Shown: in pieces, positions 1,133 to 35,700 of the stretch
Numbering within the stretch: position 1 is the first letter of the stretch
Layout: each line of letters starts with the position of its first letter
IMG/VR virus record: IMGVR_UViG_3300012357_000254
Location: 1-35,804 of that record
Length of the DNA stretch: 35,804 nucleotides
Reading direction: 5' to 3' (one strand)
DNA from: a virus
Made by a program: the position numbers and the translations under genes
Notes under the pieces: generated by a model
Told to the model about the DNA's origin: nothing
The model's database searches: none
The model's input: only the letters and a program-made list of their open reading frames with translations

Positions 1133-2239
1133 TCAGAATCCAACGCTTGCGTTTCTCTTCTTCGGCAAGATAGCAGACAGCGCTGCCTTCTTGGCCGCGA
1201 TCCGCGTGTGCGAATAGTGTTCCAGCATCTCCCGCCGGACATGGCCGGCGATCGCCATCACCGTATTTTCCGGAGTGCCAGCCTCCAGCAGTTTGGTGAT
1301 GATCTGATGTCGAAGGTCATGCGGAGTGATGCGGAAGGGGATGATTTCCCTTTGAATTGCCGCGTCCACCAGTTTTTTCCAGATCTTCTTCAGCCACGAT
1401 TCCGAGGTGGGTCGCGTAGGATCGTAAAAGTTGCGCTTCACGCGAAAGGGAAATATGTAATGGTCAGGTTGCGTGGCGCCGAGCGACGAAGCACGGTCCA
1501 ACATGCGCCTCATCTGTTTAACGCCGACTTCGTTCAGCCAGATGGTCCGCGGGCGGTATTGATTTTTGCCGTCCGGTACATAAAGTATTGGGTCCTCCTG
1601 GTCAAGCAGTACATGTTTGATCTGCAACATGCGGAGCTCCACTCCTGACGCTGACGTGTTGCTGGTCAGGCTGGCCACCCAGTAAGCCAGGGCCCAATCC
1701 TGGTTCGAGGCCGCCAGCTTGAAGAAAGCATTTTCCTGTTCTTCGGTAAGAACTTTAGGCGGACGCCACTTGGGGACCTTAAGCGGCCTATAGTGTTCCT
1801 GCATAGGTTTCCATAGGTTGGCTTTGCGTAACATCTGGGATACGGCATTTAAATCATGGTTAACGGCTGTAGGATGATACCTCCCGGCGTTTTGTCGCTG
1901 GTACTCTTCAAAGTGACCTATATGAATATCTCTAAGCCTTAAGCCAGAGAAGCCCTGTATGGCTCGATGTAAATAATCGCGATAGGATTTGATGGTCTTA
2001 GGTGCGTTATGTAGTTTCTTTGATTCCAGCCACTTTTCAGCGGCATGCTCAAAAATAAGTTCGGCAAACTGCGGGGCGCTGAGCATTGTCTTCACTGTCC
2101 TCTTACATTCTGCGGTTAGGCCAGGCGGGAAATTAACAAAGTATCGTATTCGCTTTTTATTCGCAACCGCAAAATCTGGTGGTTTTATTTTGGGGGGCAC
2201 CCCAAATGTAGGCAGGCGCACCTTTGTTTTAGGCTTCAT
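1133..2239 (-). CDS. Tyrosine recombinase / phage integrase
   Basis: This 368-aa site-specific recombinase probably integrates and excises the element. Residues about 55-160 form a SAM-like N-terminal core-binding domain (KTIKSYRDYLHRAIQGF, then VNHDLNAVSQMLRKANL). The catalytic domain carries HDLRH (H307, R310), a GH motif (H333) and the nucleophile in EHYSHTR (Y342). The usual first catalytic Arg sits in a 'TG.R..EL..L' context, but here that place reads TSASGVELRMLQ, with Ser where Arg is expected; the nearby ELR might substitute. The ATG at 2239 directly follows the TGA of the upstream small gene (TGAATG), so translation is probably coupled. The gene runs towards the IS110/tRNA scar, the likely attachment side. 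Identification as a tyrosine recombinase is secure; that it still works is not. Confidence 0.88.
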   Translation of the reverse strand: MKPKTKVRLPTFGVPPKIKPPDFAVANKKRIRYFVNFPPGLTAECKRTVKTMLSAPQFAELIFEHAAEKWLESKKLHNAPKTIKSYRDYLHRAIQGFSGLRLRDIHIGHFEEYQRQNAGRYHPTAVNHDLNAVSQMLRKANLWKPMQEHYRPLKVPKWRPPKVLTEEQENAFFKLAASNQDWALAYWVASLTSNTSASGVELRMLQIKHVLLDQEDPILYVPDGKNQYRPRTIWLNEVGVKQMRRMLDRASSLGATQPDHYIFPFRVKRNFYDPTRPTSESWLKKIWKKLVDAAIQREIIPFRITPHDLRHQIITKLLEAGTPENTVMAIAGHVRREMLEHYSHTRIAAKKAALSAILPKKRNASVGF

Positions 2240-2437: not shown

Positions 2438-2763
2438 CCGTGGATGAAAATGGCCGCGCGAGAAGGGCAAGAAACAGTGAGAAGAATAGGTTCAGCGATA
2501 GCTGTATAGCTGTGCTAACGAAGAAGTGCATGGCTCAAACCTATTTATATGCTAATAGGCAATTCGTCGTTGACTATCCAACTAACCTGCCCGCAGCCGC
2601 TCGCATCCTATATCATTTCTACCTATTGCCAGGCAATGAGTGAAGATGGTGGCTTGCTCGCCGCTTGACATAAAGATATGATATTGCTGCCCAACCGCCC
2701 TACATCGAGCTAGCTATCTCCTTTTAGGAAGCCGGAGGTGTGATCGATCGGGGGACAAAAAGT
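2438..2763. other. Divergent intergenic region
   Basis: This region separates the leftward integrase operon from the rightward propeller gene, so it should hold both promoters. A TTGACA occurs at 2665-2670 on the plus strand, but there is no good -10 box at 16-18 bases, so I do not call a promoter. The region is A+T-richer than the flanking genes. I see no repeat or RNA gene. Confidence 0.35.
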
Positions 2764-4599
2764 ATGACGATGCAAGGGGAAGGAATGACAACCACAAAGA
2801 ACAGCGTCTTACGGCGCGGTCTGTTGATTGCAGCTATGGCTCTGGTCACCAGCTCCATTTGCCGCGCGCAGACAATTCTAACCACTGTGACCGACCCTGG
2901 CGCCAACCAGCCTCAAACGCTCGCGGTAAACCCAGCCACCAACAAGATCTACATTGCAAACGCGGGATCTCACACCGTTACCGTTGTGGACGGTAGCACC
3001 AACACAGTATCGGCCAGCTTGCCGCTGGGAACGCAGGTGTTCTTAATGGCGACTAATCCCGCCACCAATAAAGCCTATACGGTCGGCAATGGGACCGGGG
3101 ACATCGATGTCATCGACGGTGCAACCAACAGCGTGAAGACAATCACCAGCAGCAATACCATCTTGCCGCTGGCGCTTGCCATCAATGGGACTACCAACAG
3201 GATTTACGCAGCTAATTTCGGTATCGGAAATGATCTCGGTAACAATACCTTGACGGTCATCGACGGCGCTACGGACAGGATCATCGCAACCACGAGTGTC
3301 GGGACGTTTCCACAAGCCCTCGGAGTGAATGAAGTTACCAACAAGATCTATGTAGGCGCCCGGGACCAAAACATCCTTAACGTGATTGACGGTATCAGCA
3401 ACCGCACGACCGGTCTGGTGCCAATCGGAACGGGCGCTTGCGCCCTGGTGGTGAACCAGGTGACAAACAAGATCTACGTGGCCAACTGCGGCGGCAACGA
3501 TGTTACGGTGATTGACGGGGCCACCAACTCCACGGCCACCGTGCCCGTCGGGGGTTCGCCGGCGGCGATTGACGCCAACCCCGTCACCAACAAAGTATAT
3601 GTCCGCAATACTGACGGCACGGTCACGGTGATTGACGGCGCCACCAACGCTACAACCTCCGTGCCTACAGGAGCTGGGGGACTGAGCCTGCTGGTGGTCT
3701 CGGCCACCAATAAGGTCTATTTGCCCAACATCTCCGCCAACAACATCACCGTGCTCGACGGAGCTACAAATGCGCTGACCACGCTGACTGATCCGAATGC
3801 CCTGGGGCCGTATGCGGTTGCAGTGAACAACTCCACCGGCCGAGTCTATGTGACCAATACCGCCAGCGGCAACCTTACGGTGATTGACGGCGGACCGGCA
3901 AGCCCACCGCCGACGCCAACACCGACTCCAACTCCTTCGCCAACGCCAACGCCGACGCCGATGCCCGGGCCGCCGGGACCTCCCGGACCGCAAGGACCAG
4001 CTGGGCCGCAAGGGCCGCAAGGTGATCCAGGTCCGGCGGGACCACAAGGACCAATCGGTCCGCAAGGCGTTCCCGGTCCTGCAGGACCGCAAGGACTTGT
4101 TGGGCCACAAGGGCCGATAGGACCAATCGGGCCGCAGGGTTTAACCGGACCACAAGGACCGCAAGGTTTGACGGGACCACAAGGTCTGATGGGCGCACCC
4201 GGTTTGCCTGGCCTGCAAGGACCAATTGGACCAACCGGGTCTCCGGGGCCAATAGGACCGGCCGGCGGCCAGATCTGGAACAGCTACATACCTGCGCCGT
4301 TTGACCGGACTGTTGTTGTGTCAATTCTTACGCCGAGCAAAAACATTACGCTCACGCGAATTCAGGCGCAGGCGCTGTTGCCGCCCGCAGGCTGCAGGAC
4401 AAATGCAGCCTTGCAGGTGAGTGACGGCACGGTTGCCGGTACGGTCACGCTTCCCCTGGCAGCCGCGGCGAATGACAGTGGCGTGCTGTCTCTGAACTAC
4501 GCCGCGGGGGCTCCGCTGAAGCTGTCCGTGCTTCCGCCAGCTGGATGCTCAACGGAACCGCTGTCGATCAATGTGGCAGCGCAGTACAACGGACGGTAA
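2764..4599 (+). CDS. Secreted YVTN-type beta-propeller with collagen-like tail
   Basis: From ATG 2764 the product is 611 aa. ATG 2785 (MTTTKNS) is an equally good start, with GGGGAAGGA just before it. A Sec signal peptide ([15 protein letters not shown], cleavage near CRA-Q) leads into eight propeller repeats of about 40-45 residues, each with NPATNKIY-like and VTVIDGATN-like strands, as in YncE/YVTN surface-layer propellers. A Pro/Thr linker of PTPTP repeats follows. Next comes a collagen-like stretch of roughly 35 Gly-X-Y triplets ([11 protein letters not shown] style), then a C-terminal domain of about 110 residues with four Cys. The layout is that of an exported adhesive or filament-like surface protein; collagen-like stretches also occur in phage fibres. 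It is transcribed away from the integrase and ends at a strong terminator, so it is a single-gene unit, perhaps lysogenic-conversion cargo. Confidence 0.8.
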
Positions 4600-6076: not shown

Positions 6077-6178
6077 GGGTCCACCTGGGATCAGGATTTC
6101 TTCGGCACAATTAACGTTATTCACGCAGGGAGGCTTCTCCACGTGAGAACGCCTTGATGCTGTATTCATGACGCTAAA

Positions 6179-6560
6179 ATTCTTGGGATCCTTCGACTGC
6201 GCGCTCGCATGCGCTCGCCCTTCGCTCCGGTGACAAATCCCAATGCAGTCAGTTACCTTCAGCACTGGGAAAAGCCATACCGCCTTAGTTTGTCATCTTG
6301 AGCGCAGTCCGAACGACCGAAGGGAGCGAGGCCGGAGTCGAAAGATCCCGACGCTGTATTATCCACCATGCAGCGTCAGGGAGTTCTTCCTGTTTCGTGA
6401 GAACACCTCGATGCTGCGTCTTGTGACAAGCATTCTCGGGATGACAGGCTCCCTCGGCTGCGCTCGGGATTTCGGCTGGTGGCTCAAACGCCGCCAAAAC
6501 ACCTCAACTTCGACTACGCGCTCGCATGCGCTCGCGCTTCGCTCAGGATGACAGACATAA
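6179..6560. repeat. Dispersed repeat R2 (CATCCTGAG/CGAAG family), composite copy
   Basis: The block contains the modules shared by all R2 copies: TCGAAAGATCC..., GCAGCGTCAGGGAGTTCT, GTGAGAACNCCTCGATGCTG..., GACAGGCTCCCTCGGCTGCG, and CGCTTCGCTCAGGATGACAG. The ends carry inverted motifs (GTCATCTTGAGCGCAG near the left, GCTCAGGATGACAG at the right). The gap between the holin-like and Rz-like genes (6077-6648) is almost wholly this element; no gene is supported in it. Other copies are near 7799, 28387, 29940, 34885 and 35506. Confidence 0.7.
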
Positions 6561-6648
6561 GGTTGTTCGCATCACGACTGAAACTCGTGTCCTGAGGTAA
6601 GCGCAAAAACAGGCGCATAGCCGGTGAGGCTGCGTCTCACGACTATCA

Positions 6649-7798: not shown

Positions 7799-8050
7799 AG
7801 CTCAGGTTTGTCATCCTGAGCGCGCAGTCGAAGTTGAGGTGTTTTGGCGGCGTTTGAGCCGCCAGCCGAAATCCCGAGCGCAGCCGAGGGAGCCTGTCAT
7901 CGCGAGAATGCCTGGAGCGTAATTGCAGAAGCAAAGCGTTCTCACAAGAGAACTCCCTGACACTTCATGGTAAGCAAAAACATCACAGGGATCTTTCGAC
8001 TTCGGCCTTGCTCCCTTCGGTCGTTCGGCCTGCGCTCAAGATGACAGACC
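7799..8050. repeat. Dispersed repeat R2 copy
   Basis: It begins with GTTTGTCATCCTGAGCGCGC and contains CGAGCGCAGCCGAGGGAGCC, GTTCTCACAAGAGAACTCCC, the AGGGATCTTTCGACTTCGG module and ends with CTGCGCTCAAGATGACAG. The order of modules is opposite to the copy at 29940. Positions 7701-8162 hold this repeat and a short hairpin (GGCCTGGCTGAAGCCGTGCC, 8105-8124), with no gene that I can support. Confidence 0.7.
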
Positions 8051-8162
8051 AAAGCGACGTGGTTTTCCTGCCGCTAAATGCTGTGTCTCTGATTTACATC
8101 TTTCGGCCTGGCTGAAGCCGTGCCTCATACGAACCTCGTCACGAAAAGTGTCTCCGCAACGG

Positions 8163-8992: not shown

Positions 8993-9018
8993 GGGGTACC
9001 TTTGGAAAATCTTGTTTA

Positions 9019-9096
9019 TGTGGGACAGGCACTCCTGCCTGTCCCAAGGTGTCCCTCTTGAGGATGCAAGCACCGGCAGGAGTGCTGGCGCCACAC
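9019..9096. repeat. Short inverted-repeat element R1 (MITE-like), copy 1
   Basis: The element is about 78 bp. Near-palindromic ends (TGTGGGACAGGCACTCCTGC and CGGCAGGAGTGCTGGCGCCA) flank a centre containing GTCCCTCTTGAGGATGCAAG. The same element in the opposite orientation lies at 14000, 21144 and 27575. It fills most of the gap between fibre gene 1 and the 72-aa gene. Confidence 0.75.
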
Positions 9097-9151
9097 AAGG
9101 GGTGTAGGGTTTGTTCATAACCCTAAGGGCCATCTTTCCACCAATGGCCCT

Positions 9152-11095
9152 CTAGTTTCCTACGCAGACAAAATTGATTACGTCCGTTCCGGTTCCGGTG
9201 AACGTTACGCTTGTTCCAGAAGCCTGGTTCACGCGGACCGCATTGGCTGCGGTTGCGTCGGTGGCGGTGCAGCGATAGCTGGACGAACTGGTGAACGCCG
9301 CCGCGCCGGTCAGCGTCACGGCGCAATTGCTCCCCAGCGTGCACGTGTCTTCAATGATATGAACGGACGTTTGCAGAGTTCCCGCGGCGTTGTAGGTTGC
9401 AGCGATTCTGGTGGAGCGCAGCTCACCGCCCACGTTGCCTTGCGTTCCATTTCCCAGCGCCACAACGCCGGCACTGATGCGTGACAGGCCCGTATCGGTT
9501 GCGAGATTTGCTGCGCCTGAAGTCCAGCCCCGCACGCCATTCGATCCCAGGGCATATACACCGAGCGCGCCTACGCCAAGATCAGCACCGCTTGTCGACG
9601 CAAAGTTGAACTGAGCGCCTGCCGCTCCTAAGACTGCTCCCGTGTTGCCCTGGGTACCATTACCAAACGAGACGAACGGAGAACCGGTGGTCGATATTCC
9701 TACGTTCGTTCCGAATTTAAGCAGCCCGGTTGCGGGTAAGGCCAAGGTTGTGGCGCTCAGGGTGCCGCTACTGTCGCCGGCTGTACCGTTGCCGACAGCC
9801 ACACTGGCAGCCGCGGTGCGGGAAAGCCCGGCATCGGTTGCGCCTAGCGTGAGCGGGCCGAGCGTTGTGATTCCCGCACTGCCGCCGACGGAGACAATGT
9901 CGCTCGTGTTCTTGCTCAGCCCGGCAATGTCCGCGGTGTTGGCGTTGTTGCGGAAAGCGATGGCCGTGTCGCCGGTTGCTACGCGCAGGACCCCCGTCGC
10001 CGCCGGGTTCGCGCCGCCGCTGATGAATGGAGCGCTGGACGCAAGACAGCTTCCGCCGCCGCTGTTGCGACACGCGAGGTTGCCGGTACCGCTGTCACCG
10101 TAGATCACAATATTGCCGGCGGAAGGACTCGCCGGCGCGGCCTGGTTCACAAACGTATGCGTGCTGCCGATCGCGGCGCCGATGTTCGGTGTGACCAGCG
10201 CAGGAGATGTCGCCAGAACCACGGCGCCTGATCCCGTGGTCCCGTTACTCAGGTCGGCTGCCGCCGGCTGCGATCCCGCGGGAACGCCGGAAGTGGAAAT
10301 GGAGTTGATCCACTGATGGGCCACCGCCGCGAACGACTCAACGCCGCCGAGCGTCGTCGGGCTGGGATTCGGAAGCTGCGCGCCACTAAATGTTCCACTG
10401 AGTCGCGCTGTAGGAATGATGCCGGACTGAAGAGTGCCGGTCACATCCACGGTCCACAGGTCTGTGCTGTTGGCGAAGTTGCGGAAGTGCTCAAAATTTC
10501 CCGTGGGTGAGGTGTCCGTGGCGCGCTTGCCGAAGATGGCGTCATTGCCGTTGGCTGCCTGATTGATGGTGGCGTTGCTGGCCGTGAATGCGGACGGAGT
10601 AACGGTCATCGCGCCGGTGACGCTCAGGTTGCCGTTGATGGTCAGGTTGCCCACGGTTCCGTTCGATGCCGGTGCGATGAATGACGGAAACGTAGGCGCG
10701 TAATTGTCAAAGTTGAACGTTGCGCCGGTAAAGGCAACCTGCAGGTAGCGCAGGACCTCCTGCCCGGTCGTTGTGTCCTTCACGGTGATGCGATAGTAAA
10801 TTCCGGCGGGCTGCGTGTTGGCCGGGTTCGGAACGGTGAACGATGTCACGGCGCCGGTCACAATCGGCGTGCAGTATCCGCGACGCAGGGCCTGGCCTCC
10901 TCCTCCAATCTGCGCGGAGAGAGGAACATCATTTTGATCGGTGATGAGAAAACATAATTGGCCGGAGGCAAGCTTTACGCCGTTGATGTCCTGTATGTTC
11001 GACGCGCTTACCGTCGTAAGATTCTGCGCGCATGCCGTGAGCGTGAACCCGAGAGACAGGCACACGAACGCGAAGAGTGAGAGCGGCTTTTTCAA
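9152..11095 (-). CDS. Tail-fibre-like secreted protein 1
   Basis: The product is 647 aa. The start is TTG 11095, with AGGAGA upstream, as in its two paralogues. A Sec signal peptide (KKPLSLFAFVCLSLGFTLTA, cleavage near CA-Q) precedes a shared N-domain (SNIQDINGVKLASGQLCF, then YCTPIVTGAVTSFTVPNPAN). One copy of a 50-residue fibre repeat follows (QLPNPSPTTLGGVESF, then HQWINSIST), then Gly/Ala/Ser/Thr-rich beta repeats (VAVGNGTAGDSSGTL type). The C-terminal domain (HIIEDTCTLGSNCAVTLTG...) differs from fibres 2 and 3. LGGV-type repeats and low-complexity beta structure are typical of trimeric phage fibres, but an export signal is not. It is the last gene of the tip-fibre block and the most likely to vary in target. 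Confidence 0.75.
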   Translation of the reverse strand: MKKPLSLFAFVCLSLGFTLTACAQNLTTVSASNIQDINGVKLASGQLCFLITDQNDVPLSAQIGGGGQALRRGYCTPIVTGAVTSFTVPNPANTQPAGIYYRITVKDTTTGQEVLRYLQVAFTGATFNFDNYAPTFPSFIAPASNGTVGNLTINGNLSVTGAMTVTPSAFTASNATINQAANGNDAIFGKRATDTSPTGNFEHFRNFANSTDLWTVDVTGTLQSGIIPTARLSGTFSGAQLPNPSPTTLGGVESFAAVAHQWINSISTSGVPAGSQPAAADLSNGTTGSGAVVLATSPALVTPNIGAAIGSTHTFVNQAAPASPSAGNIVIYGDSGTGNLACRNSGGGSCLASSAPFISGGANPAATGVLRVATGDTAIAFRNNANTADIAGLSKNTSDIVSVGGSAGITTLGPLTLGATDAGLSRTAAASVAVGNGTAGDSSGTLSATTLALPATGLLKFGTNVGISTTGSPFVSFGNGTQGNTGAVLGAAGAQFNFASTSGADLGVGALGVYALGSNGVRGWTSGAANLATDTGLSRISAGVVALGNGTQGNVGGELRSTRIAATYNAAGTLQTSVHIIEDTCTLGSNCAVTLTGAAAFTSSSSYRCTATDATAANAVRVNQASGTSVTFTGTGTDVINFVCVGN

Positions 11096-11238
11096 AAGGT
11101 ATCTCCTGTTCGTCTTCCGCTCAGGGGTGATGAGCAAAGTGGAAGACGCGAAAAATGAATGGATGTGGACCAAAGCTGCCATCGACGGCATGTGCAGCCC
11201 GCGCGAGCGAAAATATTAAGAGCGGCAACGGCCTCGGA

Positions 11239-13917
11239 TCACTGCGTCCGGCGAAAAGTGATTTCTGCGCCGTAGACATCAGCATTGGTTGCGGTGCCGG
11301 TGGTGTCCACGCGTTTGAGCCGCAGGTGCATGATCTGTCCGGCGGAACAAGGCGCTGTCAGGCCGGTGATGGAAACCAGGTTCATCGCGTTGACGGTTGC
11401 AGACGCGGTCGAAATCGCGGGCGTCCACAACGCGGACCATGCCGGATCGTCGGTGAAGCCGATCGACGTACAAGTGGCGTCGACGGCCCACTGCACGGTT
11501 CCGGAAGCCGTGCCGGTCGTCCAGAGGAGATTGATGTCCATCGATCCGCTGGTCTTGGTGTCTGACGGCATTTGATAGTGGAACTGGGCGGTTTGTCCGT
11601 TGGCTGTATACCGCAGCAGGCCTTTGACCACGTTGGCGCCGGCCACACACACAGCGGCGGGAATGGACGTGGCGCCCAGGTCCCAGTAGCCGGTGAATGC
11701 GCTGTTCTGGCAGCCGCCCGCCTGGTACCAGATTTTCATTGGCTGCGTGATGCTATTTCCGCTTGCCTCGGCGTCGATCGATTTGTTGGTGAACGTATCG
11801 GTTGTGGCGGCGCCGGCCACCGAATCTGTTCCGGCATTATTGTTGTTCATTCTTAATCGATGCGCGGAGGAGTCGCTCCACAGAACGTCAAGGCTTGCGG
11901 CCCCGGAAGGCGCTGCTGTTTCTGCGATGCTCGTCGCGCCGGTGATCGCCACTCCCGCGTTGCCGCCGATGGACACCTGGTCACTCGTGGTCTTGCTCAA
12001 CGCAATCACGTCAGACGCGCCGGCGTTGTTCCGGAAGACGACGGCGCTATCGCCCGAAGCTACGCGCAAAATTCCCGTCGCTGCCGGGTTCGCGCTGCCG
12101 CTGATGAAGGGAGCGGTCGTTGAGGCAGTGAAACAGCTTCCGCCGGAGGTGGTACGGCACGTGAGATTGCCGGTGCTACTGTCACCATAGAGCACGATGT
12201 TGCCTGCCGAAGGATTGGCCGGCGCGGCCTGGTTCACAAACGCATGTGTGTTCGATGTAATGCTCAGAGCTTTCAGCGTACCGCTGCTATCGCCTGCCGT
12301 GCCGTTGCCGACGGCCAGGATTGCGGCGGCGGTGCGGGAAAACCCTGCGTCGGTTGCTCCGATGGTTAACGGTCCTGGCGTTGTGATTCCCGCGCTGCCG
12401 CCGACCGTGATTACATCGCTGGTGGTCTTGGTCAATGCGGCGATGTCAGCGGAGTTGGCGTTGTTCCGGAACGCGATGGCGGTATCGCCGGTCGATACCC
12501 GCAGGACTCCTGTTGTCGCCGGGCTTGCGCTGGCGCTTGTGAACGGAGCACTCGCCGTGGCGATCAGGCAGTTGCCGCCGGAGCTGTTGTGACAAGTAAT
12601 GTTGCCGGTGCCGCTGTCACCGTAAAGCACAATGCTGCCGACGGAGGGAGTTGCAGGCGCAACCTGATTTACAAACGTGTGCGTCGTGCCGGTAACGGCG
12701 CCAAGATTCGGTGTAACCAGGATCGGGCTGCTGGCTAGAAGCGTGGTTCCTGATCCTGTGGTTCCGTTGCTCAGATCAGCCGCCGCGGGCTGTGACGTCG
12801 CGAGAACACCCACTGTCGAAATGGAATTGATCCACTGATGGGAGACAGCCGCGAAGGACTGCACGCCGCCCAGAGTCGATGAGCTGGGATTGGGCAATTG
12901 TGCGGGGATTGTCGTGCCGCTGATGTCGGCAAACGATGGCTGCGATCCTGCGGGAACGCCGGACGTGGAAATAGAGCTGATCCACTGATGAGACGGAGCG
13001 GTGAAGGACTGAACGCCGCCCAGAGTCGACGCGCTGGGATTCGGCAACTGTGCGGGGATTGCCGTGCCGCTGATGTCGGCAAACGATGGCTGCGACGCGG
13101 CGGCGGCACCGGAAGTGGAGATGGAGTTGATCCACTGATGAGATAGAGCGGTGAACGACTGCACGCCGCCCAGCGTTGATGCGGTGGGCGCGGGAAGCTG
13201 TGCAGCGCTGATTATTCCACTGAGTCGCGCAACCGGAACAGAGCCGGCCTGGAGCGTGCCGGTTACGTCCACGGTCCAAAGGTCGGCGGAATTGGCGAAG
13301 TTGCGGAAGCGCAGAAAATTTCCCGTGGGTGAAGTGTCCGTAGCGCGCTTACCAAAGATGGCGTCATTGCCATTGGCCCCCTGATTCATGATGGCATTGG
13401 CGGCCGTAAATGCCGACGGCGTGAATGACATGGAGCCAGTCGCGCTCAACGCGCCGGTGATGTTCAGATTACCTACGGTTGTGTTGCTCGCGGCGCCGGT
13501 GAAGGTTGGAAGCGCAGGCGCAAAATTATCAAAGTTGAAAGTCGCGCCGGTGAACGCGACCTGCGTGTAGCGTAGAACTTCCAGGCCGGTGCTCGAGTCC
13601 CTGATAGTAACGCGGTAGACGGTCCCGGATGGCTGCGTGTTGGCCGGATTCGGCACGGTGAATGACGTTGCCACGCCATTGGTCACCGGAGAACAATATT
13701 GGCGACGGAGCGCCTGGCCTCCTCCGCCGATCTGGAAACTGATGATCTGGTCCGACTGGTCCGTGGCTTGAAAGCAGAGTTGGCCGGCGGCGAGCTTGGA
13801 ACCGTTGATGTCCTGTATGTTCGACGCGCTCACGGTGGTAAGGTTCTGCGCGCGCGCAGTGAGCGCGATCCCAAGTGACAGACACACGAACGCGAAGAGT
13901 GAAAAAAACTTTCTCAA
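11239..13917 (-). CDS. Tail-fibre-like secreted protein 2
   Basis: The product is 892 aa from TTG 13917 (AGGAGA upstream), the longest paralogue. A Sec signal peptide (RKFFSLFAFVCLSLGIALTA, cleavage near RA-Q) leads into the shared N-domain (SNIQDINGSKLAAGQLCF). Three tandem 50-residue LGGVQSF/HQWI repeats lie at about 220-370, followed by a long series of beta repeats (SAPFTSASASPATTGVLRV type). The C-terminal head of about 165 residues (WYQAGGCQNSAFTGYWDLGA, ending GAEITFRRTQ) also occurs in fibre 3. Adjacent genes are FN3 protein upstream and fibre 1 downstream, all leftward. It is presumably a receptor-binding or surface-attachment protein; the export signal makes location on a virion doubtful. 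Confidence 0.75.
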   Translation of the reverse strand: MRKFFSLFAFVCLSLGIALTARAQNLTTVSASNIQDINGSKLAAGQLCFQATDQSDQIISFQIGGGGQALRRQYCSPVTNGVATSFTVPNPANTQPSGTVYRVTIRDSSTGLEVLRYTQVAFTGATFNFDNFAPALPTFTGAASNTTVGNLNITGALSATGSMSFTPSAFTAANAIMNQGANGNDAIFGKRATDTSPTGNFLRFRNFANSADLWTVDVTGTLQAGSVPVARLSGIISAAQLPAPTASTLGGVQSFTALSHQWINSISTSGAAAASQPSFADISGTAIPAQLPNPSASTLGGVQSFTAPSHQWISSISTSGVPAGSQPSFADISGTTIPAQLPNPSSSTLGGVQSFAAVSHQWINSISTVGVLATSQPAAADLSNGTTGSGTTLLASSPILVTPNLGAVTGTTHTFVNQVAPATPSVGSIVLYGDSGTGNITCHNSSGGNCLIATASAPFTSASASPATTGVLRVSTGDTAIAFRNNANSADIAALTKTTSDVITVGGSAGITTPGPLTIGATDAGFSRTAAAILAVGNGTAGDSSGTLKALSITSNTHAFVNQAAPANPSAGNIVLYGDSSTGNLTCRTTSGGSCFTASTTAPFISGSANPAATGILRVASGDSAVVFRNNAGASDVIALSKTTSDQVSIGGNAGVAITGATSIAETAAPSGAASLDVLWSDSSAHRLRMNNNNAGTDSVAGAATTDTFTNKSIDAEASGNSITQPMKIWYQAGGCQNSAFTGYWDLGATSIPAAVCVAGANVVKGLLRYTANGQTAQFHYQMPSDTKTSGSMDINLLWTTGTASGTVQWAVDATCTSIGFTDDPAWSALWTPAISTASATVNAMNLVSITGLTAPCSAGQIMHLRLKRVDTTGTATNADVYGAEITFRRTQ

Positions 13918-13999: not shown

Positions 14000-14076
14000 T
14001 GTGGCACCGGCACTCCTGCCGGTGCTTGCATTCTCAAGAAGAACACTTTCGCACAGGCAAGAGTGCTTGTGCCACA
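14000..14076. repeat. Inverted-repeat element R1, copy 2
   Basis: The 77-bp element begins TGTGGCACCGGCACTCCTGC and ends GGCAAGAGTGCTTGTGCCAC-A, imperfect inverted termini about 26 bp long. The rest of the 13918-14218 gap has a short hairpin (CCCACGCCTGAAGGCATGGG, 14159-14178) and no gene. Confidence 0.75.
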
Positions 14077-14218
14077 TTTTTCTGGTTCACGCTTACAGTG
14101 AAACTGCTCTAAAGCCCGTCGTCTAATAGACCTTTACGCGGCCCATTCGCTTCGCTCGCCCACGCCTGAAGGCATGGGCTGGGGCTGCTCTTCCATCAAC
14201 GCTGTTCTTCCACCTACG

Positions 14219-15425: not shown

Positions 15426-16445
15426 CTACTTTGTTCTGCGATACGTGATTTCCATGCCGAACACATCAGCATTCGTGGCGGTGCCGGTGGTGTCCACGCG
15501 CCTGAGCCGCAACTGCATGATTTGTCCGGCGGAACAAGGAGCGGTAAGACCGGTGACAGAAGCGGAGTTCATCGCATTCGCCGTGGCGGACGCGGTAGAA
15601 GTTGCCGGCGCCCACAACGCCGACCACGCGGGATCATCGATGGAGCCGATCGAGGTGCACGCGGAATCGACGGCCCACTGGACCGTGCCGGAAACAGTGC
15701 CGGTTGTCCAGACGAGATTGATGTCAAGTGTCCCGCCGGCCTTGGTGTCACCGGGCATTTCGTAGTGGACCTGCGCGGCTTGTCCGTTGGCCGTGTAACG
15801 GAGCAGACCTTTGATCACGTTGGCGCCATTCACGCAAACAGCCACGGGAATAGAGCTGGCGCCCATGTCCCAGTAACCGGTGGGTGCGTTGTTTTGGCAG
15901 CCAGCCGATTGGTACCACAGTTTTACCGGATGTGTGATGCTGTTGCCGGTTGCTTCGGCGTCGATCGTCTTGTTGGTGAAAGTATCGGTTGTAGCGGCGC
16001 CTACAACGGAATCCGCACCAGCGTTATTGTTGTTCATCTTCAGACGATGAGCAGTGGAATCACCCCACAGGAGGTCCACAGCCGCAACTCCGGAAGGCGC
16101 CGCGATTTCTGACGCGCTCACCGGACCGGGAGTTGCGATGCCCGCGCTGCCGCCCACGGTGACAACGTCACTCGCATTCTTGGTGAGCGCCGCGATGTCC
16201 GCGCTGTTGGCGTTGTTGCGGAAGGCGATAGCGATGTCGGTGGAAGTGGCGCGCAGGACTCCCGTGGTTGCCGGATTCGTGTTGCTGCTGATGAAGGGGG
16301 CCGCCGCCGCGGCCGTAAGGCAGCTTCCACCAGAGGCGTTGCGGCACGTGATGTTGCCCGTGGCGGTGTCACCGTAGAGCACAATGTTGTTGGCGGGCGG
16401 ATTGGCGGGCGCGGCCTGGTTCGCAAACGTGTGCGTTGTACCGGT
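15426..16445 (-). pseudogene. Tail-fibre protein 3, C-terminal part (cut by the inversion)
   Basis: This is an open frame of 339 codons without its own start. At 16445 it joins foreign sequence. From TGTTHTFANQAAPANPPANN onwards it aligns with fibre 2 (TGTTHTFVNQ...) through the beta repeats to a C-terminal head (WYQSAGCQNNAPTGYWDMGA, ending GMEITYRRTK) very like that of fibre 2. Its missing N-terminus is on the opposite strand at 17638-18861. Joining the two halves at 16445/18861 gives NIGAA-TGTTHTF, the sequence expected from fibres 1 and 2, and a 747-aa protein. In the present arrangement this half should not be translated unless a downstream ATG (16382) is used. Confidence 0.8.
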
Positions 16446-17585
16446 GCTGTGATCGCCAACACCGCATTCACATTGAACCAGACATGGCAGAGATTCTCAG
16501 TAACAAACACGGCGGCGGCCAGTGCGACAGGCATTAGATGTTTCCTCTATAACCCTTCGTCAACCTCCATCGCCTATCACTATTGGGGCGCGCAACTGGA
16601 GCAGGCCTCCTCGCCATCCAGCTACATCCCTACTACCGCTGCATCGGTCACGGTGGCCTCTCCGAATTGGGGCGGCTGCTCGGTTTGGGTTTCTCCAGAC
16701 AACGCGACCTATGCACAGGCTGGAAAAATGTACGGCCCTTCGCGCATGGGCGTGCTCACGGCTCTACTGTCTTCCAGCGCGGACCCCGACACCACGCACA
16801 CACTGTCCGTGGATGTTGCCAAATCTACGGGCATCCTGAATGGCGGCACCGCTTCTGACGCCGATAACTTCCGCACGCTGTGCTACGTTGATGGCGAGTT
16901 GATCAGCTTCCAAACGGCCTCGCTCACTAGCGCATTCCATTACAACCTTGCCACCCGGCTTCGGCGCGGCGTATTTGGTTCGCCCGTCAACACGCACGCC
17001 GCAGGCGCTGCTTTCCTCCGCCTGGATGACGGGGTCTTCGTCTGGGAAGCCGACCCCACCCTGGTCGGCACAACAATTTATTTCAAATTCACCAGTTTTA
17101 ATAAGTTCGGGTTGATGGAGCAATCGTTGGCGAGCGCCACGGCCTATAGCTTCGCTTTCAACGGTTCGTTCGGCAATATCGGCGATCCGCCGGCGAACAA
17201 TGCCACTGTTGATTCCATCTTTGTCAGCGGGAGCGATGACAGCATCCGCGTCTATGGCCCCGGTGGAGTCGGGACCTCTTATACGACATGGAAAAAAGAC
17301 CAGACCACGCGCACAATTCCCGCGCAGACCATCACCATGGTGGAAGAGACGGGAGCATCTCCGCAAACTACCACGGTTTATTGGGTGAGCTACGACTTCA
17401 ACTCTGGAACCCATCGTGCCTGGCGCAATTACAACAATTATGTTCAGGCCGTCGGCCGCGGACAGATGAGAATTAGCGCTACTATCACTGTCAATTCAAG
17501 CAACACTGGCGGAAGCACTGGCGGCCAGGGTGATTCCGGTGACGGCGGCTCTGGCGATATTGGCCGGATACTGCCGGCCATATAA
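16446..17585 (+). pseudogene. Tail-tip protein, C-terminal part (cut by the inversion)
   Basis: An open frame of 379 codons with no credible start; the nearest is GTG 16431 in foreign sequence. It opens with AVIANTAFTLNQTWQRFSVT and YHYWGAQLEQASSPSSYIPT. That is the second half of the jelly-roll, carbohydrate-binding-like domain whose first half ends the minus-strand tip fragment. It continues with the baseplate/tip C-terminal region (WVSPDNATYAQAGKMYGPSR, LLSSSADPDTTHTLSVDV, LRRGVFGSPVNTHAAGAAFL), typical of the tip protein of RcGTA-type and related tails, and ends in a Gly/Ser-rich tail. Joined to 18862-21099 it restores a 1,125-aa tip protein. Confidence 0.82.
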
Positions 17586-17637
17586 CGACGGGGTAACACC
17601 TTTCGCCGCACCCCCTGCAAATCTTCAGGAGACAACT

Positions 17638-18882
17638 TTGAAAAAGCTACGCTCACTCTTCGCATTCGTGTGCCTGTCTCTTGGGTTCTCGTTCAGTGTT
17701 TACGCGCAGAATCTTGCGACCGTCACTGCGTCGAACATACAGGACATTAACGGCTCCAGGCTTGCCTCGGGCCAACTCTGTTTTCAGGCCACCGATCAGG
17801 CTGACCAGATCATCAGCTTTCAGATCGGCGGTGGAGGCCAGGCGCTTCGGCGGCAGTACTGCTCTCCGGTGACCAACGGCGCAGTGGCTTCATTCACTGT
17901 GCCGAATCCGGCCAACACGCAGCCCGCGGGGATCTACTACCGAATCACCGTCAGGGACTCAAGCACCGGTCAGGAAGTTCTGCGTTACACCCAGGTTGCT
18001 TTTGCCGGGGCCGCTTTCAATTTTGATAATTATGCGCCCACGGTCACAACTACCACCACGCCGTCCACGAACGCGACCATGGGCAATCTGACCATCAACG
18101 GCAATCTGAGTGTTACCGGCGCGATGACGTTTGCTCCGTCCTCTTTCACCGCCAGCAATGCCACGCTCAACCAGGCTGCCAATGGCAATGACGCCATCTC
18201 CGGCAAGCGCGCCACCGACACTTCGCCCACGGGAAACTTTGAGCGCTTCCGCAACTTTGCCAACACCGCCGATCTATGGACTGTGGACGTAACCGGCACA
18301 CTTCAGTCCGGCACTGTTCCGACGGCGCGACTCACTGGAACTTTCAGCGGCTCGCAGCTTCCGAATCCCACTGCATCGACGCTGGGCGGCGTGCAGTCGT
18401 TCGCGGCCGTTTCACATCAGTGGATCAACTCGATCTCCACTTCCGGTGTTCCCGCGGCATCGCAGCCGTCATTTGCCGACATCAGCGGTACAGCGACCGG
18501 ATCGCAGTTACCCAATCCCAGCGCAACCACCTTGGGCGGCGTGCAGTCGTTCACAGCCGTGTCACATCAGTGGATCAATTCTGTTTCCACTTCCGGCGTT
18601 CCCGCGGCGTCGCAACCGTCGTTTGCCGACATCAGCGGTACAGCGACCGGAGCGCAGTTGCCCAATCCCAGCGCGGCAACTCTGGGTGGCGTGCAGTCGT
18701 TCGCGGCCGTGTCGCATCAGTGGATCAATTCCATTTCTACTTCGGGTGTTCCCGTAGCCTCACAGCCGGCAGCGGCTGACTTGAGCAATGGAACCACAGG
18801 ATCAGGCGCGGTTGTTCTGGCCACCAGTCCCGCGCTGACAACTCCCAACATCGGCGCGGCCAAACGCCTGATCTTCAATTAG
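17638..18882 (+). CDS. Tail-fibre-like secreted protein 3, N-terminal part (truncated by inversion)
   Basis: It starts at TTG 17638 behind AGGAGA, the same arrangement as in fibres 1 and 2. A Sec signal peptide (KKLRSLFAFVCLSLGFSFSV, cleavage near YA-Q) precedes the shared N-domain (SNIQDINGSRLASGQLCFQA) and three 50-residue repeats. At codon 408 (18861) the fibre sequence ends, and six foreign codons (KRLIFN) lead to a stop, giving a 414-aa product without C-terminal head. It is on the plus strand while its paralogues are on the minus strand. It could still be made as a headless exported protein if a plus-strand promoter reaches it. The missing part is at 15426-16445. Confidence 0.8.
   Translation: MKKLRSLFAFVCLSLGFSFSVYAQNLATVTASNIQDINGSRLASGQLCFQATDQADQIISFQIGGGGQALRRQYCSPVTNGAVASFTVPNPANTQPAGIYYRITVRDSSTGQEVLRYTQVAFAGAAFNFDNYAPTVTTTTTPSTNATMGNLTINGNLSVTGAMTFAPSSFTASNATLNQAANGNDAISGKRATDTSPTGNFERFRNFANTADLWTVDVTGTLQSGTVPTARLTGTFSGSQLPNPTASTLGGVQSFAAVSHQWINSISTSGVPAASQPSFADISGTATGSQLPNPSATTLGGVQSFTAVSHQWINSVSTSGVPAASQPSFADISGTATGAQLPNPSAATLGGVQSFAAVSHQWINSISTSGVPVASQPAAADLSNGTTGSGAVVLATSPALTTPNIGAAKRLIFN
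18337..18786 (+). repeat. Three tandem 150-bp repeats in fibre 3
   Basis: Three copies of a 50-codon unit, each containing QLPNP, TLGGVQSF, SHQWIN, STSGVP and SQP, lie head to tail. Nucleotide identity is high, especially for GGCGTGCAGTCGTTC-like stretches. Fibre 2 has three diverged copies and fibre 1 has one, so the unit number has changed by unequal recombination. Confidence 0.85.
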
Positions 18883-21099
18883 CATGTTGATGGTGGGCGA
18901 TCCAGACGCGGCCTTGAGCCAGCAGCTGAATGTGAAGGGCCGATTTGCGGGTGACAATGGAGGCGTGACCAATTGCCCGACGGCTGTTTCTGTGCTGAGC
19001 GTTGAATATACCACCGCGTCCGCCGTGGTCCCGCCCAATGGGTCGACCACAGAATTTGCTGTCACGCTGGTGACGTTGCTCTTGGTCCACGCGGCATCGT
19101 CGAATTGTTCTGACTTCAGCAATAAGTTTGTCCGACCGCCGGATGCACCAATCCACACTTCATAGTTACCGGTCAGGGAAAGCCGGTCATTGGCTTCAAA
19201 GATCACCGGAGCATTCACCGCGCCCGGGTCCGCGTTGGCCTGAGGGACGAATCCGGCGCCCGGCTGGTGCGGGTAGAGCGTTGGCGTGGCCGTGCCCCAG
19301 GGGAAGTCTTCCGCATCAATCTGGATGGTGCCATTTTCGTCTTCGCGCATGGCGGTGATGCGGACCGGCTTCTTGTTGTATCCCAATTCCGGGATGGTAA
19401 GCGTGAGCAGGTCCATGGGCTCAAGCAGGTTGAACTGCCAGCCCAGATTGAACGTGTAGGTGGCGCGAATCTCCACCGAGCGTTTACGCAGCAGGTTCGC
19501 GGCGAATTTGGCCACTTCTTTCGTGGTGATGGAGTGGGCCTGCATCGGCTGGGCTTTGCGCAGACCGTACAGGGCGATCATGGCGTCGTCTTTGTCTTCG
19601 GCTACGTCCACGTTGTAGTCGTTGGCGCGATTGACCCACTCCACGCTGACCGCGTTCATCACTTCGGCAACGCTTGGGCGCTTGACCACCACCTGGCTCA
19701 GAAGGTCCGCGGTGGTCAGGTCATAGATAGGTTGCGTGTTGGGAATAAAGGTGACGCCATTGTTCACGACCGTGGTGTCGCCGTACGGAATAATTTTCAG
19801 AACGCCTTCACTCCACACTGCCGCGGCGTTGGTGACGTCAAGTAATTCCTGGATCCACGCTGCGGCGGTTTTCTGCGCGTCGAGCACGGGAGAAAGGAAG
19901 AGTCCGTTGGCGGTGCAGAATTTTCGGTACTGCGTGAGGTCGCCAGGAGTGACTGTGCCGGCAAGACCATAGAAAGGATTGCCCAGCAGGTCGGCGATGA
20001 TCGACGAAGGTTCGGCATCGGTTATGCCGCCGCCGAACGGCAGCGCGCCCAGAACTTCAAAGCTCAGGTTCGGCATGGTCCCGCTTTCGCCCAGGTCCAT
20101 GTTGGAGGACGCTACATACGCAATGCCGTTGTAGCCCAGGTCCTGGCCGGGATGCGCGGAAGTCAGATAGCTCCAGGGTGTCTGCGGCCGCGTACCGGTG
20201 AACAATGTCAGACTAAGTTTTTGCGCAGGATCACCATTTGAATTTGAATCCGGTACAGAGTAAACATAGGTGATCGTCATCACCTTGCCGGCGTCAGACG
20301 GGGAAAAATTAAAGGTGGAGCCGGATTGCGTATACTGTCCCGCGCCGGGCGAGCCGCCGACCAGCGCCATCGGCGTCTGCTGGTTGCCGGAGAACGCGAG
20401 CGAAGCCGTACCGCCCGATGTGTAAGCTCCGTTACCCGTAGTGCCATTCAACGTAAAAGTGTTGGCGCCCGTCTTGGTGATGACCCAGATCCCATTGGCA
20501 GCCGTGTTTCCGCCTACACCGGAGATCGATACCGTTTGCCCTGTGATGTAGCCGTGAGCAACATCGGTGATGCTGATCGGAGAAGCATTGCTGGCGCCAG
20601 TGATTTTGGTTGGCGCATCAGAGCCGAAATCGGTGTTGGCCAGGCTGTATGCATCATTTCGGCTCACGCCGGTATGCATCTTGAACACGCCGGAGGCGGG
20701 CGGAGTTACCTGGAACCCGCCACCACCGCCAGGCACCATATACGGCACCGTGTTGGTAACCAGAGTGAGCCGGCCCTTGGTGTCCCAGACGTTTTGAATA
20801 TTGACGATCGGCCCCATGCAGAGCGCCATCGCGACGGCTGTCTGATATGTGTACGTGGTGTTGGTGATAGCGTTGCCGCCGCCCGATCCCAGGCCTTTGC
20901 CGCCGACCTTGGTGGTGGACGTGTGCGGGATCGCCGTAAAATCGCCCGCCCAGATTAACCGTGCCGCGATGCGGTTCTGGCCGTAAAGAATCGGAATCAC
21001 CTGGCCGTACGAGCTGGTCTGGATGCGTAGCGCGCTCAGCAAGTTCGGTTTTGCCGCGAGAGCATTCTTGCCGCCGCCTTTTCCGCCTAGCATTCCCAT
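18802..21099 (-). CDS. Tail-tip / host-specificity protein, N-terminal part (truncated by inversion)
   Basis: The start is ATG 21099 (MGMLGGKGGGKNAL), with AGGAA upstream. The first 746 codons are tip protein. These hold the N-terminal hub (LSALRIQTSSYGQVIPILYG, then LIWAGDF), an inserted FCCH-like beta domain at about 163-236 (ITGASNASPISITDVAHGYI, then NGTTGNGAYTSGG) and the tip core (QYRKFCTANGLFLSP, AAAWIQELLDVTNAAAVWSE). A further segment (AEDKDDAMIALYGLRKAQPM) leads to the first half of a jelly-roll domain from residue 657 (TNLLLKSEQFDDAAW). At 18861 the sequence switches, and 19 foreign codons lead to a stop at 18802. It belongs to the family that includes gp15 of RcGTA and J-like tip proteins, which bind the host and organise the tail end. 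The other half is at 16446-17585. Confidence 0.82.
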   Translation of the reverse strand: MGMLGGKGGGKNALAAKPNLLSALRIQTSSYGQVIPILYGQNRIAARLIWAGDFTAIPHTSTTKVGGKGLGSGGGNAITNTTYTYQTAVAMALCMGPIVNIQNVWDTKGRLTLVTNTVPYMVPGGGGGFQVTPPASGVFKMHTGVSRNDAYSLANTDFGSDAPTKITGASNASPISITDVAHGYITGQTVSISGVGGNTAANGIWVITKTGANTFTLNGTTGNGAYTSGGTASLAFSGNQQTPMALVGGSPGAGQYTQSGSTFNFSPSDAGKVMTITYVYSVPDSNSNGDPAQKLSLTLFTGTRPQTPWSYLTSAHPGQDLGYNGIAYVASSNMDLGESGTMPNLSFEVLGALPFGGGITDAEPSSIIADLLGNPFYGLAGTVTPGDLTQYRKFCTANGLFLSPVLDAQKTAAAWIQELLDVTNAAAVWSEGVLKIIPYGDTTVVNNGVTFIPNTQPIYDLTTADLLSQVVVKRPSVAEVMNAVSVEWVNRANDYNVDVAEDKDDAMIALYGLRKAQPMQAHSITTKEVAKFAANLLRKRSVEIRATYTFNLGWQFNLLEPMDLLTLTIPELGYNKKPVRITAMREDENGTIQIDAEDFPWGTATPTLYPHQPGAGFVPQANADPGAVNAPVIFEANDRLSLTGNYEVWIGASGGRTNLLLKSEQFDDAAWTKSNVTSVTANSVVDPLGGTTADAVVYSTLSTETAVGQLVTPPLSPANRPFTFSCWLKAASGSPTINMLIEDQAFGRADVGSCQRGTGGQNNRA

Positions 21100-21143
21100 G
21101 TCGGTTGGTTCCTACGTGTATGAATTGGCTTTGGTGTGGTGTG

Positions 21144-21220
21144 TGTGGCATCGGCACTCCTGCCGGTGATTGCATTCTCAAGAAGGACACTTCAGCACAG
21201 GCAAGAGTGCCTGTGCCACA
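21144..21220. repeat. Inverted-repeat element R1, copy 3
   Basis: TGTGGCATCGGCACTCCTGC at the left and GGCAAGAGTGCCTGTGCCAC-A at the right form imperfect inverted ends around ATTGCATTCTCAAGAAGGAC. It lies between tip and NlpC/P60 genes in the same orientation as the copy at 14000. Confidence 0.78.
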
Positions 21221-27428: not shown

Positions 27429-27574
27429 GGCCCCGTTCCTCCAGAGGCGAAAGAATAGCAAAATTGCGTTAGGCACGCAAGGGGTTTTTTCGCTGCAGCC
27501 CGCAGGGCTGCTATTTTCTTTGTTGTGGTACCAAACAGAGGAAGAGACCCTGACATGTTGTGGCACCGAACTTG

Positions 27575-27650
27575 TGTGGCACCGGCACTCTTGCCGGTGC
27601 CTGCATTCCCACGAACGACACTTCAGCACAGGCAAGAGCGCCTTGTATCA
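27575..27650. repeat. Inverted-repeat element R1, copy 4
   Basis: The copy runs from TGTGGCACCGGCACTCTTGC to GGCAAGAGCGCCTTGTATCA, with a decayed right end. It lies between the second chaperone frame and the lipoprotein. Confidence 0.68.
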
Positions 27651-28291: not shown

Positions 28292-28386
28292 AAATTTGTC
28301 CTCCAACGTTTGTGGTTAAAAATTATCTGGCGATGCCGATTCGTATCAGGGCACGAGGTGCGGGTATGCGCGAATCAAACTTACGT

Positions 28387-28584
28387 CTGTCATCCTGAGC
28401 GGAGAGCGAGCGCATGCGAGCGCGCAGTCGAAGGATCCCGAGAGAGTCTGGGTAATGAGTGCCGCATCAAGGCGTTCTCACGAGAGAACTCCCTGACGCT
28501 GCATGGTGAATCACACACCGTCGGGATCTTTCGACTCCGCCCTTACTCCCTGCGGTCGTGCGGCCTGCGCTCAAGATGACAGGT
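28387..28584. repeat. Dispersed repeat R2 copy
   Basis: It starts TGTCATCCTGAGCGGAGAGC and contains GTTCTCACGAGAGAACTCCC, GCTGCATGGTGAATCACACA, CGGGATCTTTCGACTCC and ends with TGCGCTCAAGATGACAGG. It occupies the chaperone / tail-tube gap (28292-28640), which has no other content I can support. Confidence 0.7.
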
Positions 28585-28640
28585 TGATGAGATCACGCGA
28601 CCACCCGATCCCCCGATCAACATATCTCCCGATCTTCCTA

Positions 28641-29886: not shown

Positions 29887-29939
29887 TTCTTCTCCGGTTT
29901 AGGTTTGCCGACTCGTCAGGGAAAATAGATCGCCACCAG

Positions 29940-30208
29940 CCTGTCGTCTTGAGCGTAGACCGAACGACCGAAGGGAGCGAGGGTGGAGTCGAAAAATCCC
30001 GGCGATGTTTCATTTACCATGCAACGTCAGGGAGTTCTCTTGATGCTCGTGAGAACGCCTTGATGCTGTATTCATGCCGCAAGCGTCCTCGGGATGACAG
30101 GCTCCCTCGGCTGCGCTCGGGATTTCGGCTGGCGGCTCAAACACCGCCAAAACACCTCAACTTCGACTTCGCGCTCGCATGCGCTCGCACTTCGCTCAGG
30201 ATGACAGA
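29940..30208. repeat. Dispersed repeat R2 copy
   Basis: The block contains TGTCGTCTTGAGCGTAGACC, GCAACGTCAGGGAGTTCTCT, GTGAGAACGCCTTGATGCTG, GATGACAGGCTCCCTCGGCT, CGGGATTTCGGCTGGCGGCT and CGCTTCGCTCAGGATGACAG-type ends. The gap 29887-30282 holds this repeat and no supported gene. Confidence 0.75.
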
Positions 30209-30282
30209 GGTAAATGGGCCGTTCTTCCACCAAGAACCAAAAGCCAAAAGCTGGTGCTCGTTCTTTCCACCAAAACAAAATC

Positions 30283-31386: not shown

Positions 31387-31952
31387 GGGTCACCTTTCGT
31401 TTGCAGATGTATATATAAGGATAAGAATGTGGTTGTGGACCGCAGGCACCCTCGCCTGCGTTTTGTTCGCGCCAGGCGCAGAAGTGGTGGAAGAGCGGCC
31501 CTTTGGCGAAACAGGTTCATATCAGGGCACGAGCTTCAGCCGTGCCAAGGTCCACGCTTAGCCCGGCAGGGCGGAATTATTGAGCCCACTCGCGTAAGCG
31601 GTGGGTAAGGTGCAATCAATAACAAGCCCCGCAGGGGCGACATTTGGTTCTTTCATGAATAGAGAATGTGTTGTACGACATGCGGGGAAGCGTATGCCGC
31701 CCCGCTGGGGCTTAACCGTCTTCTCGATTACCCAGGCCTTACGGCCTGGGCTCAATAATTTCGCGCCTGCTGCGCTCGGATTTCGCGAGCATCCGTCTCA
31801 TGCGAGGCCACCAATCACGTAATCAAAAAAAATAAAATTTAAGGAACGCGATGGGAGGACAATCGCACCGCGTTCCTTTGGGCCTGAAGCGTGCTGGCGC
31901 AGCACTCATCAGGGTTTCCAGCGGTCACCAGGCTGTGGGACCGCTGGAAGGT
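31387..31952. other. Repeat-filled gap between adaptor and capsid genes
   Basis: The gap contains a GC-rich hairpin near 31431-31462 (CGCAGGCACC/CTCGCCTGCG), a GGCACGAGCTTCAGCCGTGC hairpin near 31525-31544, and the R5 element (31561-31778). The rest (31779-31952) is A+T-rich around 31824-31842. The plus-strand frame beginning at 31851 is only the antisense of the capsid gene. A portal gene is not here. Confidence 0.55.
31561..31778. repeat. Repeat R5, imperfect inverted repeat
   Basis: The ends GGCGGAATTATTGAGCCCA and CTGGGCTCAATAATTTCGCG are inverted copies. Inside, GCCCCGCAGGGGCGACA and GCCGCCCCGCTGGGGCTTAA pair again. It looks like a mobile or structured repeat, not a coding region. Confidence 0.7.
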
Positions 31953-34842: not shown

Positions 34843-34884
34843 GGTGTCTCCTGAAAATAGAAAAAGTGGAAGACCACATCGTCG

Positions 34885-35112
34885 TACTCTGTCATCTTGA
34901 GCGCAGGCCGACCGACCGAAGGGAGCAAGGCCGGAGTCGAAAGATCCCCGTGAGGCGTCATCTACCATGCAACGTCAGGGAGTTCTCTCGATACTTTGTG
35001 AGAACGCCTTGATACCGCATTCATGCTGTAAGCATTCTCGGGGTCCTTCGAACTGCGCGCCCATCAGCGTCGTTTGAAGAAAAACTACGCGGCGCTTCGC
35101 TCAGGATGACAG
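34885..35112. repeat. Dispersed repeat R2 copy
   Basis: It contains GTCATCTTGAGCGCAGGCCG, GGAGTCGAAAGATCC, GCAACGTCAGGGAGTTCTCT, GTGAGAACGCCTTGATACCG and CGCTTCGCTCAGGATGACAG. The stretch 34843-35266 holds this repeat and otherwise no supported gene; the small minus-strand frame 35021-35383 is repeat plus antisense of the zinc-finger gene. Confidence 0.75.
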
Positions 35113-35440: not shown

Positions 35441-35505
35441 CCTGGTTCGAGGCACTGTACGTATCTGTCTTCGCGCTTCAGCGCTGGGAAAAACCGCATC
35501 GCCTT

Positions 35506-35700
35506 AATCTGCCATCTTGAGAGCAGGCCGAACGACCGAAAGGGAGCAAGGCCGAAGTTGAAAGACACCGGTGAGTCGTCATCTACCATGCAGCGTCAGG
35601 GAAGTTCTCTTGTGAGAACGCCTTGATGCTGCATTCATGCCGCAGGCATTCTCGCGATCCTTCGACTACGCGCTCCGCATGCGCTAGTGCAGTGTCCAAC
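35506..35700. repeat. Dispersed repeat R2 copy (partial)
   Basis: It starts CTGCCATCTTGAGAGCAGGC, contains GCAGCGTCAGGGAAGTTCTC, GTGAGAACGCCTTGATGCTG, GCAGGCATTCTCGCGATCC and CGCTCCGCATGCGCTAG, and then ends abruptly at TGCAGTGTCCAACAAATAAC, where different sequence begins. No gene is seen between 35441 and 35742. Confidence 0.65.

Follow-up and report, generated by a model that had tools for sequence, protein, structure and literature searches.

Gene Content of the Viral Contig

The window, i.e., the whole stretch of DNA analyzed here, is an entire IMG/VR virus record. It is 35,804 bases long and represents an uncultivated virus by a linear contig that contains no runs of N. Profile matches to tail, head, and integrase genes characterize it as a temperate tailed-phage element. 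Terminase and portal genes were absent among the ORFs scanned, and the contig is therefore probably incomplete. The features relevant to this study are listed in Table 1. Two tail genes, encoding a tail-tip protein and a third tail fibre, are each found in two parts on opposite strands, and the fibre gene has two intact paralogues in the contig.

Outside the tail module, an Acido-Lenti-1 RNA (RF01687) is located at 31731–31776 (+), within a gap of the head module. Between the integrase and lysozyme genes, and on the opposite strand, 2740–4599 (+) encodes a 619-aa protein with a beta-propeller and collagen repeats; the 6-kb stretch around this gene has next to no match with related elements.

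Table 1. Positions of the inverted segment, the split and intact tail genes, the integrase gene, and the interspersed repeats in the window.
Feature	Position	Strand	Match or basis
Inverted segment, 2416 bp	16446–18861		Conceptual inversion, relatives' order, microhomology
Tail-tip N-part (J / GTA Rcc01698-like), 746 codons to 18862, then 19 out-of-context codons and stop	18802–21099	-	PF13550 Phage-tail_3, 3.4e-26; phrog_1101 tail protein, 3.3e-90
Displaced tail-tip C-part, 379 codons	16446–17585	+	PF23666 Rcc01698_C, 3.4e-13; phrog_1101 profile positions continue those of the N-part
Third fibre gene N-part, 408 codons to 18861, then 6 out-of-context codons and stop	17638–18882	+	78% aa identity to paralogue N-part 12697–13917 (-)
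Third fibre gene C-part, 339 codons, not moved	15426–16445	-	72% aa identity to 11242–12258 (-)
Fibre 2, intact paralogue, yardstick	11239–13917	-	
Fibre 1, intact paralogue, yardstick	9152–11191	-	phrog_32740 tail fiber, 2.1e-11
Tyrosine integrase	1133–2239	-	PF00589, 8.5e-17; phrog_1 integrase, 6.8e-37
First repeat family, 7 copies	6126–6235, 6257–6595, 7818–8068, 28346–28593, 29934–30213, 34868–35060, 35476–35685		
Second repeat family, REP-like palindromic, 4 copies between tail genes	9018–9097, 14000–14077, 21142–21220, 27573–27646		GCACAGGCAAGAGTGCYTGTGCCACA core

A Balanced Inversion Splits Two Tail Genes

When 16446–18861 is inverted in silico, the tail tip becomes a single frame of 1125 aa with the junction ...INMLIEDQAF/AVIANTAFTL... 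(slashes mark breakpoints), and the third fibre becomes a single frame of 747 aa with the junction ...TPNIGAA/TGTTHTF...; neither frame contains a stop. The first-pass annotation had proposed that a 2.4-kb inversion splits these two genes and that flipping it repairs both in frame, and its coordinates proved right. The inversion is balanced to the base, with nothing lost or gained and with reciprocal junctions. Once it is undone, Phage-tail_3 is followed by Rcc01698_C in a single open frame, which is the order of J / Rcc01698-type proteins. In the form present in the window, both products are truncated (746 + 19 aa for the tip and 408 + 6 aa for the fibre), and alternative C-termini are not provided. 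The tip breakpoint lies inside an inserted carbohydrate-binding-like domain, which weakly resembles CBM_4_9 at a score below the curated cut-off. The fibre breakpoint lies at a module border, and both paralogues in the window align over it without a gap (NLGAVTGTTHTF and NIGAAIGSTHTF).

The same annotation had noted that each of the two genes is joined at a codon boundary. The frames do join, but the coincidence says little. Inversion of 16445–18862 or 16447–18860 yields a product identical to that of 16446–18861, owing to a TG/CA microhomology. With three equivalent cut positions, one of them necessarily falls between two codons of the first gene, and by simple arithmetic the second gene agrees by chance in one case out of three.

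The three fibre starts, at 17638 (+), 13917 (-), and 11191 (-), each carry a stretch that resembles a Sec signal peptide (e.g., LRSLFAFVCLSLGFSFSVYAQ). The N-parts of the fibres of related elements match from residue 1, and a signal-peptide-like start is odd in a virion fibre.

Gene Order Among Related Elements

Scans of viral contigs found 54 loci with the N-part of the tip and 20 with the C-part, largely on the same contigs. A distinct contig or genome was counted as a relative when it contained the N-part as well as the C-part of the tip (n = 33). The first-pass annotation had suggested comparing related strains for the uninverted form, and this form was found throughout: in all 33 relatives the tip is collinear, on one strand, and in one open frame without a stop, such that the count of inverted relatives is 0/33. 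Likewise, the fibre N-part is on the strand of the tip in 23/23 relatives with a recognizable N-part nearby. Three relatives (L025, L026, and L027) possess the carbohydrate (sugar)-binding-like domain and align without a gap over the tip breakpoint of the window (e.g., LIEDQTGAVIVNT), where NMLIEDQAF/AVIANTAF of the window corresponds to NLLIEDQTGAVIVNTAF of the relatives. Elsewhere in the window, conserved coding blocks are on the minus strand, matching the relatives. Because the relatives are collinear, with three of them gapless at the tip breakpoint and the two paralogues of the window gapless at the fibre breakpoint, the window is, as judged by sequence comparison, the derived, inverted form, and the inversion is exact between the two breakpoints.

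A search of other viral contigs found no exact copy of the tip junction in its ancestral form or of the left junction in its inverted form. The fibre C-part had only one match among viral contigs, a distant one. Tip relatives in known phages are distant only, the best reaching about 40% over the main matches, and the further tip relatives among 297 genomes surveyed across the phylum are also distant only.

Crossover Sites and Recombinases

The crossovers share T/G on one side and C/A on the other and no further bases, in agreement with the earlier observation that TG alone is common to them. In a simulation on the window sequence, 16.6% of random inversions had at least 2 bp shared (P = 0.166), and the TG therefore does not point to a site. 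In register, the crossovers are identical at 6/26 positions, and the longest inverted word common to them within 20 bp is 5 bases, which is equaled by 68% of random pairs. No repeated word of at least 10 bases spans either junction in the contig, and a repeat-driven assembly misjoin within the genome was rejected for this reason. Two candidate recombination sites were rejected as well. The long inverted repeats in the region are the fibre paralogues turned antiparallel by the inversion, and they lie off the crossovers. Direct repeats of 77 nt occur at 14000 and 21144, but these positions do not match the breakpoints.

For recombinase genes, the first-pass annotation had no invertase in view. 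This holds for serine invertases: PF00239 (resolvase/invertase) is absent from every frame of the probably incomplete contig, whereas it matches 10 of 14 control genomes. However, a tyrosine integrase gene is present and is the sole recombinase gene found in the contig. It is conserved in the relatives, after the fibre and lysozyme genes, and a temperate phage is expected to carry such an integrase.

These patterns make it very unlikely that the inversion is a programmed reversible switch between a tip-less (OFF) and a complete (ON) particle, operated by this integrase or by a recombinase encoded outside the contig. Such a switch is not supported: the crossovers have no inverted repeat, no invertase gene was found in the probably incomplete contig, none of the relatives is inverted, and the products are truncated. 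A serine recombinase would require just such a 2-bp core, but identity in register ends there; an invertase could sit outside a contig that seems incomplete, and a tyrosine integrase is present, although the latter occupies the ordinary phage-integrase position of the relatives. The exact balance of the inversion and the undecayed half-genes are consistent with a switch, whereas the benefit of a tip-less phage is not evident. None of the 33 relatives is inverted, whereas the closest yardstick, the P segment of prophage e14, spans 1797 bp in stfP/stfE, has 16-bp inverted repeats, and occurs in both orientations, with 33% of 562 genome sequences carrying it inverted (PMC12529663). It is highly improbable that a temperate phage toggles its entire tail tip by a reversible inversion without repeats, through a recombinase for which a 2-bp core is enough. 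If the two orientations did coexist, an unlikely case, this would reveal a novel type of phase variation in phages.

State of the Half-Genes

Stops and frameshifts are absent from all four half-genes. The dN/dS values of the two third-fibre halves relative to fibre 2 are 0.16 and 0.20, compared with 0.19 between the N-parts of the intact paralogues; a short terminal branch is invisible to this test. Given the intact reading frames and the similarity of the fibre-half values to those of intact paralogues, it is unlikely that the inversion was fixed long ago. The lack of decay implies that the inversion is recent, unfixed, or an artifact of the record that is not in the source DNA.

The last of these explanations, in which an assembly misjoin, an amplification chimera, or a data-handling error produced the inversion in the contig alone and the source phage retains the ancestral order, is a substantial possibility, although short of an even chance. 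It would account for the undecayed half-genes and for the uninverted order in 33/33 relatives, and the record is a linear uncultivated contig of which no second copy was found. However, the two junctions mirror each other base for base; a single chimera would create just one junction, and two independent chimeras are unlikely to match exactly. The 2-bp overlap is also shorter than those of amplification chimeras, which are usually 5–8 nt with a peak at 6 (PMC4595205), and within the genome there is neither a junction-spanning repeat to mislead an assembler nor a run of N. If the inversion is an artifact, it serves as a warning that one contig is a poor basis for inferring switches or lost genes.

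Host-Type Repeats and a Proposed One-Off Inversion

The window contains 11 repeat blocks of a kind characteristic of Acidobacteriota chromosomes, which belong to two interspersed families (seven and four copies) and total 1.9 kb. Relatives of the element are present in two Acidobacteriota MAGs, as found by a genome scan with the tip. In two Acidobacteriota MAGs, one query of the first family matched 26 and 21 places, whereas a coding control of the same length had 0 matches. The second family matched 6 and 12 places, and its core is dispersed in these genomes. In comparison, only three sites that resemble the first family were found in the 33 relatives (477 kb). Several intergenic gaps are wider than in the relatives, including the mcp-adaptor gap (566 bp vs. 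at most 307 bp), the gap downstream of the tube gene (tube-g117; 334 bp vs. at most 158 bp), and the neck-terminator gap (396 bp vs. a median of -4), and the repeats occupy some of the widened head and tail gaps. Based on the host-type repeats and the widened gaps, the prophage has probably been resident in a chromosome for a long time, although repeat density and gap lengths do not prove defectiveness.

Taken together, the best explanation is a one-off, repeat-less inactivating inversion in a long-resident prophage of an Acidobacteriota (Terriglobia-type) soil bacterium, a reading that we consider about evenly poised between right and wrong. The 2416-bp segment would have flipped once without flanking repeats, possibly by double-strand breakage and rejoining or by some other illegitimate route involving 2 bp of microhomology. 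The tip would then stop after 746 residues inside the carbohydrate-binding-like domain and lose Rcc01698_C, and the domain order suggests that particles would be non-infectious or unassembled. The event may be recent or limited to this lineage. Long residence as a prophage, which is probable for this element and during which it appears to have accumulated host repeats, may explain why such a loss was tolerated. The reciprocal in-frame junctions, the collinearity of 33/33 relatives, the 2-bp crossovers, and the host-type repeats all count for a one-off inversion. The undecayed halves count against it, as they require that the event be very young or that the inverted form be a minority or an artifact. 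A fixed inactivating event or an artifact, which the first-pass annotation had named as alternatives to the switch, fits better than the switch. If real in the sampled DNA, the inversion would provide a clean example of a resident prophage losing infectivity by a single event before gene decay.

Comparison With Known Systems

Invertible tail-fibre segments include Mu G, P1 C, and the e14 P segment, which are inverted by the serine invertases Gin, Cin, and Pin. Similar to these, the inversion in the window is about 2 kb long, and its breakpoints each interrupt a (pro)phage tail gene. However, it differs from the Gin/Cin/Pin switches in lacking inverted repeats, a detectable invertase gene, alternative C-termini, and inverted relatives. 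At neither crossover was an inverted-repeat site of that type found (2 bp shared, 6/26 in register, longest word 5), and where those switches yield full-length fibres in each orientation, the inverted form here truncates both tip and fibre. Nor is there the identical overlap of several base pairs that accompanies inversion by a tyrosine recombinase, as the identity is 2 bp.

Illegitimate inversions at the level of microhomology also disrupt genes in resident prophages. The inversion in the window resembles these in its occurrence in one genome only, its 0–2 bp at the junctions, and its split genes. Compared with them it is unusually clean, with neither loss nor gain of bases and with genes that are so far undecayed. 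Finally, once the inversion is undone, the tip resembles the Lambda J / GTA Rcc01698-type tail-tip (host specificity) proteins, with PF13550 followed by Rcc01698_C; unlike those proteins, it carries an inserted carbohydrate-binding-like domain, and it is in this domain that the break falls.
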